IMG/VR virus record: IMGVR_UViG_3300010396_000016
Location: 1 to 47,734 of that record
Length of the DNA stretch: 47,734 nt
Direction: 5' to 3' (one strand)
DNA from: a virus
Shown: positions 9,270 to 11,743 of the stretch, piece after piece
Position numbering within the stretch: the first letter of the stretch is position 1
How the letters are laid out: every line of letters begins with the position of its first letter
The notes under the pieces: model-generated
Told to the model about the DNA's origin: nothing
The model's input: only the letters and a program-made list of their open reading frames with translations
The model's database searches: none
Translations under genes and position numbers: made by a program

Positions 9270-9511
9270 AGCCACTCCCAGCTACTAACATTGCGCCAGT
9301 ATTCCTTGCCGCTACTGAACGAGCGCACCTTGATTCGTGCGCCGTAGCCATGGGCGACGACACCAACCCAGACGCTCGTGACGCTGTTGCGGCATCGACA
9401 CTGAGAGCCGACCGGGAGCAGCTTGTTTATTAAGGCGGCGTACCGGCGCTCAGCGTCGTGGATTGCGCCAACAGCACGCGCCAATTCAGTTTGTATGGTC
9501 TCGTTTTTCAT
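9266..9511 (-). CDS. Hypothetical protein, 81 residues
   Basis: ATG at 9511. A helical N-terminal half, then a segment with Cys-x-Cys (SQCRCRNS) and a beta-rich C-terminus (YGARIKVRSFSSGKEYWR). Function unknown; ATGA coupling to the methyltransferase upstream. Confidence 0.7.
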   Translation of the reverse strand: MKNETIQTELARAVGAIHDAERRYAALINKLLPVGSQCRCRNSVTSVWVGVVAHGYGARIKVRSFSSGKEYWRNVSSWEWL

Positions 9512-10239
9512 CCCTGCACCTCCTCCAGCATCGGCTGCACGGCTTGCGTCTCGGGCGATGGGCCGAAGTCCATTACCTGCTGGGAGAGGCGCTTGGCCGC
9601 GAGCGCGCAAAAGCGTTCTTCTATCTCGATCCCCGTGAACTTGATTCCGAGCGACCGGCAGGCCAGTGCGGCGGTTCCAGATCCCATGAATGGATCGATC
9701 ACGGAGGCGCCTCCGAACCATTTACACAGCCATTGCACATGCTGGAGCCGGCGCGGCGCTGGGTGCGGCATCTTGGCCGCATTGTCAGCGGTTCGGTTGA
9801 ATCGCTTCGCCGGTCCGTTCCAATTTGATCTGCGGAACATCGAATCATGCCTCGTACTAATGCACAGTCCCGGAATCAATTTGCGACCAGTCTTTGGGAT
9901 GGCTCCAAAAACATAGGCGATGTCGCCGCCGTAGATCAGGCGGCCCTTATAGCTGGGTTTCGCATAATCGAGGACACAGACCCTAATAAACGGCCATCGC
10001 CGTGGGACCGCCGCCAAAAATCTGGGGTCGGAATCGCAGCCAAGCTGCACCACCACGCGGTCGGCAGATGCGTACGCCAGAGATTCCTCCAAAAGGGCCA
10101 GCGGGTCGAGAACCTTTGGAAATATCGAGTTTGGCCACACCGGATCGGTGATGATCGCGTCGGCCGACATCCCCGGGAGAATCTCCCGGCAATCTCCCAG
10201 GTAAATCTCGATCCCGCCTTCGCTGTAGTACGGCGTCAC
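9508..10239 (-). CDS. DNA N4/N6 methyltransferase
   Basis: About 243 residues; GTG at 10239 overlaps the preceding TGA, with GTG 10242 as an alternative. The catalytic motif IV appears as TDPVWPN (residues 31-37), a variant of DPPY/SPPW, and the AdoMet-binding FxGxG motif as DPFMGSGT (182-189), in the permuted order of the beta class. Family enzymes methylate exocyclic amino groups of adenine or cytosine. No restriction enzyme partner is adjacent, so it is an orphan, probably protecting phage DNA. The Val in motif IV is unusual. Confidence 0.88.
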   Translation of the reverse strand: MTPYYSEGGIEIYLGDCREILPGMSADAIITDPVWPNSIFPKVLDPLALLEESLAYASADRVVVQLGCDSDPRFLAAVPRRWPFIRVCVLDYAKPSYKGRLIYGGDIAYVFGAIPKTGRKLIPGLCISTRHDSMFRRSNWNGPAKRFNRTADNAAKMPHPAPRRLQHVQWLCKWFGGASVIDPFMGSGTAALACRSLGIKFTGIEIEERFCALAAKRLSQQVMDFGPSPETQAVQPMLEEVQG

Positions 10240-10340
10240 CACTGCGCCTCCCACGCCTCAAACACCCAGACCGCCCATGGCTGGTATTCCGCCATCTTGC
10301 CGGGGTGCGCCTGCTTCCAGGCGCGGAGGTAGGGGTTCAT
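10236..10340 (-). CDS. 34-residue micro-protein between two methyltransferases
   Basis: ATG at 10340 overlaps the TGA of the C5 methyltransferase (ATGA), and its own TGA overlaps the GTG start of the next methyltransferase. Very aromatic (four Trp, two Tyr). The precise fit between two genes suggests real translation, but it may only serve to couple them. Confidence 0.55.
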   Translation of the reverse strand: MNPYLRAWKQAHPGKMAEYQPWAVWVFEAWEAQW

Positions 10341-11710
10341 GCCAGTACCTCGATGTACGCCCGGATGAACTCGGCGGCCAGCGGCGGAACGATGGCGTTG
10401 CCATAACCCCGCAGCCTCATGGTTCTGCATTTACCTTTCTCGATGAGCGGCGCATAGACCTCCATGACGCCAACGCGGCAACGTCCCAGGCTATCGGGAA
10501 GCCCATCAACCATCGGCTCAGGCTCGGGTTGAGTTGCCCGCTGAATGGCGCGCAGTTTTCCGTCCCGGCAGGGAATCCAGGCGGCATCGGCCCAGGCTCC
10601 GTTAACCGAGCTTGATGGCACAGTTGCGCCTGTCCCGGGCCGTTTCTCGTTCCCAACTTGGCATCCACGGTGTTCGGCGTCATCCATCCCGCCAAGCTCG
10701 ATTGCGCCGTCAGCGTGTCCGCCACGCCCCGCGCGTGCCGCATCCCCGACGATTCCACATCCTCCGCCCTCGGCGTTCCCCGTCCCGCCAGTTTCGCTTC
10801 GCCTGGAAGCCGGAGGTTTAAGGTGTAGGGCTTCCCGTCCGTGTTCCGGTTGCCGTAGCTGTACTCCACACCCCGCGAATCGCTCACTGTCGGCGTTCCC
10901 CACCCGGCCAACAGCGCGACCGTCTTGCGGCTGCTGTCGCTGCTCCCCGCGGCATTGTTCCCGTTCTGCGCCGGGGTCTGCGCCATCGGCGTCGGCCATC
11001 CCGCCAACATCGCCACATTCTCCAGGCACACCTGTGCTTTGCTGCCGTCCGGCTTCCGGCCTGTCGCCGTCGTCTCCGCCGGTTGCGATCTGCCGCCGTT
11101 CGGCGTGTTGGGTGTCGGCCACGACGCCAGTTGCGCGGCATCGTCCAGGTTCGACCGCTCCCCGTACCGCTGCGCTTGGCCTCCGCCGTGACCGTCCCGG
11201 CTCTGTGTGGTCGGCCACCCAATAAAGCCGCTTCCTGATGTGGGGCGCCCCGACACTGCAAGCCCCAAGTACCGCCGCCCCGCAGGCGTAACCCGCGGCT
11301 TCCAGGTCTCCGAAAACAAGATCGAGCCACCCGAAGCCAACCGCCGCTTCAACTTGCTCGCCAATGATTGCTGAAAACTCGCACTCGCGGATGAGCCGAA
11401 ACCACGTCGGCCAAAGGTGTCGCGGATCATCGAAGCCTGCACCGCCGCCGGCCGCTGAGAAGCTCTGGCAGGGGCATGACCCTGTTGCGATGGGCCTGTC
11501 ATCGGGCCATCCGGCGAGGCGCAACGCGAGGCTGAATCCACCGATGCCGGCAAAGAAGTGGTGCTGGGTGTAGCCGCGCAAATCGTCGGCTCGAACATCG
11601 GCAATTGATCGCTCATCCACATCTCCCGGCGCGATCGCGTGCGCCTTTATCAACTCCCGCAACCAGGAGGCCGCACCGGCGTCATGCTCGTTGTAGTAGG
11701 CGCGGCTCAT
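10337..11710 (-). CDS. C5-cytosine DNA methyltransferase
   Basis: 457 residues from ATG at 11710 with GGAGGG upstream. Motif I is HHFFAGIGGFSLAL (50-63), the catalytic PCQ loop GSCPCQSFSAAG (77-88, Cys81), motif VI is reduced to GEQVEAA, motif VIII is HIRKRLYWVAD, and motif X is GYGNAIVPPLAAEF near the C-terminus. Between VIII and X lies a long Gly/Asp-rich target-recognition region with repeated V(A/G)(D/N)A(D/E) units, which is dual-coded with the overlapping frame at 10417-11616. Function: methylates cytosine; probably guards phage DNA against host restriction. No cognate nuclease is seen. Confidence 0.9.
   Translation of the reverse strand: MSRAYYNEHDAGAASWLRELIKAHAIAPGDVDERSIADVRADDLRGYTQHHFFAGIGGFSLALRLAGWPDDRPIATGSCPCQSFSAAGGGAGFDDPRHLWPTWFRLIRECEFSAIIGEQVEAAVGFGWLDLVFGDLEAAGYACGAAVLGACSVGAPHIRKRLYWVADHTEPGRSRRRPSAAVRGAVEPGRCRATGVVADTQHAERRQIATGGDDGDRPEAGRQQSTGVPGECGDVGGMADADGADPGAEREQCRGEQRQQPQDGRAVGRVGNADSERFAGCGVQLRQPEHGREALHLKPPASRRSETGGTGNAEGGGCGIVGDAARAGRGGHADGAIELGGMDDAEHRGCQVGNEKRPGTGATVPSSSVNGAWADAAWIPCRDGKLRAIQRATQPEPEPMVDGLPDSLGRCRVGVMEVYAPLIEKGKCRTMRLRGYGNAIVPPLAAEFIRAYIEVLA
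10417..11616 (-). CDS. Overlapping gene inside the C5 methyltransferase; GW-x-TP repeat protein
   Basis: A 399-residue frame on the same strand, shifted by one base relative to the methyltransferase and almost wholly inside it. ATG at 11616 has its own GGGAG ribosome binding site 6 nt upstream. The N-terminal part is Ser/Pro/Ala-rich; then six copies of a motif like LAGWPTP (W at about residues 134, 166, 207, 239, 279 degenerate, 311), and a C-terminal QLNPSLSRWLMGFP block. I recall phage proteins with the same GWPTPT repeats and NP-x-SRWLMG(F/Y)P ending from other genomes, which argues that this frame is translated. Function unknown. Confidence 0.6.
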   Translation of the reverse strand: MSDQLPMFEPTICAATPSTTSLPASVDSASRCASPDGPMTGPSQQGHAPARASQRPAAVQASMIRDTFGRRGFGSSASASFQQSLASKLKRRLASGGSILFSETWKPRVTPAGRRYLGLAVSGRPTSGSGFIGWPTTQSRDGHGGGQAQRYGERSNLDDAAQLASWPTPNTPNGGRSQPAETTATGRKPDGSKAQVCLENVAMLAGWPTPMAQTPAQNGNNAAGSSDSSRKTVALLAGWGTPTVSDSRGVEYSYGNRNTDGKPYTLNLRLPGEAKLAGRGTPRAEDVESSGMRHARGVADTLTAQSSLAGWMTPNTVDAKLGTRNGPGQAQLCHQARLTEPGPMPPGFPAGTENCAPFSGQLNPSLSRWLMGFPIAWDVAALASWRSMRRSSRKVNAEP

Positions 11711-11729: not shown

Positions 11730-11743
11730 TACACTGGCCCGCA
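11730..11743 (+). promoter_or_regulatory. Possible leaderless start for integrase
   Basis: TACACT at 11730-11735 lies exactly 7 bases before the integrase ATG, as expected for a -10 box whose transcript begins at the start codon. There is no purine-rich ribosome binding site in front of the ATG and no clear -35. Only suggestive. Confidence 0.3.

Follow-up and report, generated by a model that had tools for sequence, protein, structure and literature searches.

A temperate phage C5 cytosine methyltransferase gene, lying in a DNA stretch of 47,734 nucleotides that was analysed as a whole (hereafter the window), contains a second gene read in the +1 frame of the same strand over 1.2 kb. It is close to certain that this nested frame, which we call H, is a real gene and that the DNA it shares with the methyltransferase frame, M, is dual coding. 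Both frames are kept by selection, H is selected as a protein, and both products are presumably made.

Results

Layout of the locus

M extends over positions 10337..11710 of the minus strand (457 aa; ATG at 11710, alternative GTG at 11734, stop at 10337), and H (10417..11616, minus strand, 399 aa, ATG at 11616) lies wholly inside it. Position 1 of each H codon is position 2 of an M codon, the M wobble position is H position 2, and M position 1 is H position 3. The Shine-Dalgarno (SD)-like GGGAG that had been predicted for the hidden frame is present at 11627-11623 (minus strand), 6 nt 5' of the ATG at 11616, and a second in-frame ATG at 11622 abuts it. The window belongs to a temperate phage, with integrase, excisionase, portal and terminase genes found. 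Directly 3' of M, an N4/N6-type methyltransferase (PF01555, 6e-10) is encoded at 9508-10254 (minus strand). A PADLOC scan of the neighbouring ORFs identified only this second methyltransferase and no endonuclease near M; the M/H locus is an orphan methyltransferase, with no recognisable partner endonuclease beside it.

M was assigned to phrog_363 (1.8e-72) and to PF00145 (2.5e-15, residues 83-176, as far as motif VIII), and it aligns to M.HhaI. The catalytic-domain motifs I (FAGIGG, 11537..11554), IV (the catalytic PCQ, 11465..11473, placed by sequence and by the M.HhaI alignment), VI (GEQV where ENV is standard) and VIII (GAPHIRKR, 11228..11251) are present, all on the minus strand, and M matches Pfam, NCBIfam and PDB entries no further than motif VIII. 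Motif X (GYGNAIVP, 10385..10408, minus strand) also belongs to M and lies 3' of the H stop, outside the overlap. M has no motif IX in its own chain; a motif-IX-like block is found only in H. H has no match in Pfam or NCBIfam and was assigned to phrog_1008 (2.1e-25) and phrog_31772 (1.7e-20), so that the proposed search of the hidden frame against phage proteins did return homologues. The predicted SRWLMGFP-type ending is likewise there, seen in the window as NPSLSRWLMGFPIAWD. All three PHROG families carry the label "DNA methyltransferase"; phrog_363 and phrog_1008 are separate entries, and those returned do not mention the overlap. The record of phage K1ind2 annotates both nested ORFs, each named DNA methyltransferase, and many other records annotate just one of the two. 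Our search of the open-access literature found no paper treating the overlap as a general feature, which is no proof that none exists.

H has several recognisable parts. Its core, a helix followed by a β-hairpin (SSASASFQQSLASKL...SETWKPRVTPAGRRYL, 11248..11388, minus strand), is supported by AF2 and codon lock and overlaps M motifs VI-VIII; the conserved helix-hairpin reads SSASAxLQxSL...LTWKxxxTPSGR. The cassette array (10540..11217, minus strand), supported by cassette families and H-frame substitution phases, holds six W-x-T-P units beginning at 11217, 11121, 10998, 10902, 10782 and 10686; they correspond to the six predicted GW-x-TP repeats, in the looser form W/R-x-T-P/T. The motif-IX-like block GQLNPSLSRWLMGFPIAWD (10483..10539, minus strand), identified by hhalign and codon lock, follows, and its DNA read in the M frame gives ...EPEPMVDGLPDSLGR. 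AF2 modelled H with a mean pLDDT of 48 (66 for a compact homologue), rising to 91 in the core block (83-90 in the compact homologue); only the helix-hairpin and the C-terminal helices were well predicted. Foldseek found no match for the H models among solved folds, the PDB profile search was negative, and no recognition-domain fold was found in H with these weak models.

Both frames are kept open, and start signals are enriched in the H frame

Among 89 viral relatives (80 fetched with M and nine with H), an H homologue was found at the same +1 offset in all 89. Both frames were present at this offset in 250 of 250 loci, which comprise these 89, 80 genome loci, 80 viral loci found with the H profile and the window. 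Loci retrieved with H are ascertained for H, and the cleaner figure is that of the 80 M-fetched loci, 78 of which have both frames intact across the overlap. The prediction that both frames are open for 1.2 kb withstood codon shuffling: H is open in 179 of 180 deduplicated loci, when only 4.6 would be expected from M-synonymous shuffling within each locus, so that stop codons are not common in the hidden frame of relatives. Conversely, M is open across the variable region in 174 of 174 loci (18.8 expected from H-synonymous shuffling). An SD sequence with an in-frame start near the expected start of H occurs in 104/180 loci against 26.8 expected, which extends the start signals of the window to its relatives; 76/180 have no obvious SD plus ATG/GTG for H.

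Canonical C5 methyltransferases, from the same and from other hosts, have 6-25 stops in the +1 frame and no full-length H, the sole H match among them being a 39-codon fragment (L264). In genomes that also hold canonical enzymes, the phage-type methyltransferase genes all have H. M is broken in a few loci (L009, L087, L099, L148 and L187), in each case within the overlap and with H still open; the breaks may be natural decay or sequencing errors. An insertion of ~540 nt lies in L087.

Selection acts on different frames in different regions

Substitution phases were determined from 36 independent locus pairs that are 74-97% identical. Upstream of H, the rates at M positions 1/2/3 are 0.090/0.068/0.317, a position 3 to position 1 ratio of 3.53. 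Over the overlapped catalytic motifs they are 0.102/0.059/0.202 (ratio 1.97), in the C-terminal overlap 0.126/0.077/0.144 (1.14) and beyond the end of H 0.179/0.132/0.299 (1.67). In the variable region the order is inverted, with 0.283/0.136/0.113 and a ratio of 0.40 (95% 0.33-0.49), M position 1, which is the H wobble position, being the fastest. Outside the overlap, then, selection acts on M only; in the motif and C-terminal parts it acts on both frames, and in the variable region on H only. Since substitutions there follow the H frame, the GWPTP cassettes are the selected product; the VADAD repeats of M are an unselected, stop-free spacer whose amino-acid sequence is not conserved. The original prediction thus stood that one stretch of DNA, read in two frames, gives both the ADAD-type repeats in M and the WPTP repeats in H; what did not stand is dual coding of this stretch in the sense of two selected products, because M is kept open there without being conserved. 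The idea that the repeats are an M-coded target-recognition region was discarded, M position 1 being the fastest and the M amino acids unconserved there.

Codon usage in M gives the same picture of suppressed synonymous change, which had been proposed as a test. Synonymous information per M codon is 0.141 (near background) before H versus 0.804 in the overlap, where individual codons are locked (for example GTT in 163/165, CCT in 169/177 and GGG in 140/145), most strongly over the H core. In the C-terminal block, M codons are fixed as GTT (134/134) and GCT (122/122), and each of the H residues W, M and P is conserved in 154/155 at sites where M is variable.

H cassettes are exchanged between near-identical genes

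H carries 0-9 cassettes of ~36 aa, each starting with W-x-T-P. Twenty-four cassette families occur in at least five loci, at differing places in H, and 25 pairs of families were seen in both orders. Within a family, cassettes resemble one another more closely in H than in M (for example 0.74 versus 0.49), and their substitution rates at H positions 1/2/3 are 0.23/0.19/0.49, mostly position 3. Cassettes are swapped between near-identical genes: L026 and L061 are 99-100% identical over the overlapped motifs, have no cassette in common and return to 93-96% identity at the end, and the main difference between L026 and L051 is the first cassette. Because the DNA flanking L026 bears no relation to that flanking L061, the methyltransferase gene may be transferred from prophage to prophage as one complete module.

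The motif-IX block is found in one frame at a time

The H ending LNPxxSRWLMGFP matches methyltransferase motif IX, weakly so for canonical enzymes. Its stretch LNPAHSRWLMGLPPEWD was aligned by hhalign (E 1.1e-7) with LSPVFVEWMMGLPRGWV, which in a single-chain actinophage methyltransferase sits between motifs VIII and X; actinophages JKSyngboy and Fushigi both have the motif-IX-like block inside a single-chain methyltransferase. Against canonical motif IX, the match of the H block is in the right place and weak (E 0.03, hhalign probability 1.6%). A further 178 viral loci, drawn from three distant clades, were examined for the frame of the block. Of the 167 that could be scored, 147 had it in the +1 frame alone and nine in M alone; none had it in both, and in 11 it was undetected. 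We base the view that H supplies motif IX to M chiefly on the finding that the two frames never both carry the block. In these distant-clade loci, openness of the +2 frame is not conserved.

The arrangement extends to distant phages

The H profile matched the +1 frame of methyltransferases from phages of Paenibacillus (5.5e-27), Gordonia (2e-11), Mycobacterium (2e-8), Stenotrophomonas (1e-4), Bacteroides (4e-14) and Lacticaseibacillus (7e-12), and from phage C75C1 (4.6e-16). Several of these phages are at 41-45% G+C, and H of C75C1 has 460 codons. The M/H arrangement is real and is conserved among phages that infect many bacterial phyla.

Several loci depart from the common layout. In Gordonia phage Upyo (L252, 1797-3066), M stops soon past motif VIII, and the +1 frame alone holds LPTP cassettes together with motifs IX and X, so that the enzyme is split in a different way. 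In EBPR siphovirus 2 (L254, 1504-3999), an intein-like insertion splits M within motif IV (CPC|...HN|CQPF) and brings many +1 stops, so that H would there have to start downstream or lose its N terminus. In L064 (3480-4808), the H frame continues into the HNH-type sequence CEFCG...HHVDED...CDSCHKSWH, which suggests that the overlapped gene has received a homing endonuclease. Edwardsiella phage eiAU has been described with two methyltransferase ORFs and phage eiDWF with one larger ORF (PMC3025963). The 412-aa eiDWF protein E7EKU9 matches the H model, eiAU is among our loci (L291), and a difference of frame at this locus may be the cause of the discrepancy.

Discussion

The explanation that we consider likely is that M and H together form a two-polypeptide C5 methyltransferase of the M.EcoHK31I type, of which H would be the modular recognition (β) subunit. 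M (α) would contribute catalytic motifs I-VIII and motif X, while H, translated in the +1 frame from a ribosome binding site of its own within M, would contribute the helix-hairpin, the exchangeable array of ~36-aa cassettes and motif IX, and the two chains would associate into a single active enzyme. The cassettes occupy the target-recognition position of C5 methyltransferases and would probably determine which DNA sequences are methylated; their exchange would retarget methylation and so protect the phage from different host restriction enzymes. The complex, the subunit and recognition roles of H and the anti-restriction benefit are proposals. The conserved C-terminal block of M itself, EP...DGVPxRVGRL, could also act as a recognition element.

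The strongest of the other explanations, which we nonetheless think unlikely, is that H is a real overlapping protein and not a methyltransferase subunit, for instance an anti-defence or regulatory protein that shares the DNA. H matches no Pfam or NCBIfam family and no PDB fold, and its cassettes are of no known function, all of which would suit such a protein; it does not account for the complementary distribution of the motif-IX block between the frames, nor for its place within a single chain in JKSyngboy and Fushigi. Moreover, H was never seen without M in the loci retrieved. Absence of homologues beyond methyltransferase loci had been put forward as a reason to doubt the hidden gene; no such homologue occurred in the loci retrieved, and this fits an obligate partner, not an artefact. 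Somewhat less probable still is a programmed +1 frameshift from M that yields an M-H fusion in place of separate initiation of H. The constant +1 offset would agree with this, as would Upyo, in which a shift from the early-ending M into the +1 frame would give a complete enzyme. However, motif X stays in M in the family of the window, SD sequences and starts are enriched in the H frame, and the H core over M motifs VI-VIII, which is the part most strongly selected, would be left untranslated by a downstream shift.

The last two explanations are very improbable. That H is a by-product of a conserved methyltransferase read off by one in G+C-rich DNA has in its favour that the window is G+C-rich and that DGVP of M can read MGFP in the +1 frame, forcing some resemblance among H sequences, but such a chance ORF is refuted by the synonymous-constraint and phase tests (locked M codons, a variable region evolving in the H frame), and also by the long H frames kept at 41-45% G+C, the canonical methyltransferases without H and the +2 frame that is not conserved open. 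An RNA or DNA element in place of a protein could produce high constraint across a defined stretch, but is rejected on the codon periodicity of the H frame, both in the cassettes and in the variable region where M position 1 is fastest.

The two-polypeptide reading, which we prefer, has a precedent. The β polypeptide of M.EcoHK31I is reportedly translated from another reading frame inside α, according to the original paper. As in that enzyme, the small chain is nested in the large one in another frame (250/250 loci), a likeness of layout. The large chain has motifs I-VIII and X and the small one motif IX in both, with the caveat that the match of H to motif IX is weak (E 0.03). Unlike M.EcoHK31I, which belongs to a restriction-modification system that has a single target, M/H is an orphan in a temperate phage, has no cognate endonuclease beside it among the neighbouring ORFs scanned by PADLOC, and bears a variable, swappable cassette array in H. 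The expectation of a new type of phage locus is thus reduced to that of a new variant, M.EcoHK31I being an earlier case of an overlapping two-polypeptide enzyme. Among plasmid matches we looked for an EcoHK31I-type restriction system and found none in the four inspected: one was a prophage-like copy that is broken, another a fragment next to an integrase, and the rest were canonical genes for single-chain enzymes.

Recognition modules in series are familiar from Bacillus phages. The multispecific C5 methyltransferases that SPbeta, phi3T and rho11 encode (Trautner et al. 1996, a reference given in PMC12707154) reportedly carry serial target-recognizing domains. These modules are ~40 aa. Like the ~36-aa cassettes of H, they are exchangeable, lie between motifs VIII and IX, and belong to phage-borne enzymes with no partner nuclease; the difference is that they are in the same chain, whereas the putative recognition modules of H are in another frame and polypeptide. 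As regards two-polypeptide enzymes, M.EcoHK31I (YGGCCR; Lee et al. 1995) has only motif IX in its smaller polypeptide (PMC3404938). M.AquI is a split C5 methyltransferase cut into I-VIII and IX-X subunits (PMC3404938), which, like M and H, jointly give the full motif set; it is divided at the variable region, whereas H overlaps most of M. A hidden out-of-frame HNH endonuclease has been reported in the phage DNA methylase of the ShiLan type (PMC11855218). This too is an out-of-frame ORF within a phage methylase gene, but it is a homing endonuclease inserted as part of a short element, whereas H is co-extensive with the methyltransferase and present throughout its family.

We regard as evenly balanced the wider proposal of a pan-phage class of two-frame cytosine methyltransferases, spanning phages of Proteobacteria, Firmicutes, Bacteroidota and Actinobacteria. 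In this class, the +1 frame would encode a modular multispecific recognition subunit with swapped cassettes and the catalytic frame would serve as a passive open spacer. Several independent tests of selection here back a 1.2-kb overlap of two genes, one that is present in hundreds of phage sequences. This turns M.EcoHK31I from an isolated oddity into what is apparently a widespread rule for phage cytosine methyltransferases. How one stretch of DNA can accommodate a catalytic gene together with a specificity gene that recombines rapidly becomes directly testable. Finally, our findings suggest a frame that often goes unannotated as the place to look for what determines target choice in these orphan methyltransferases.
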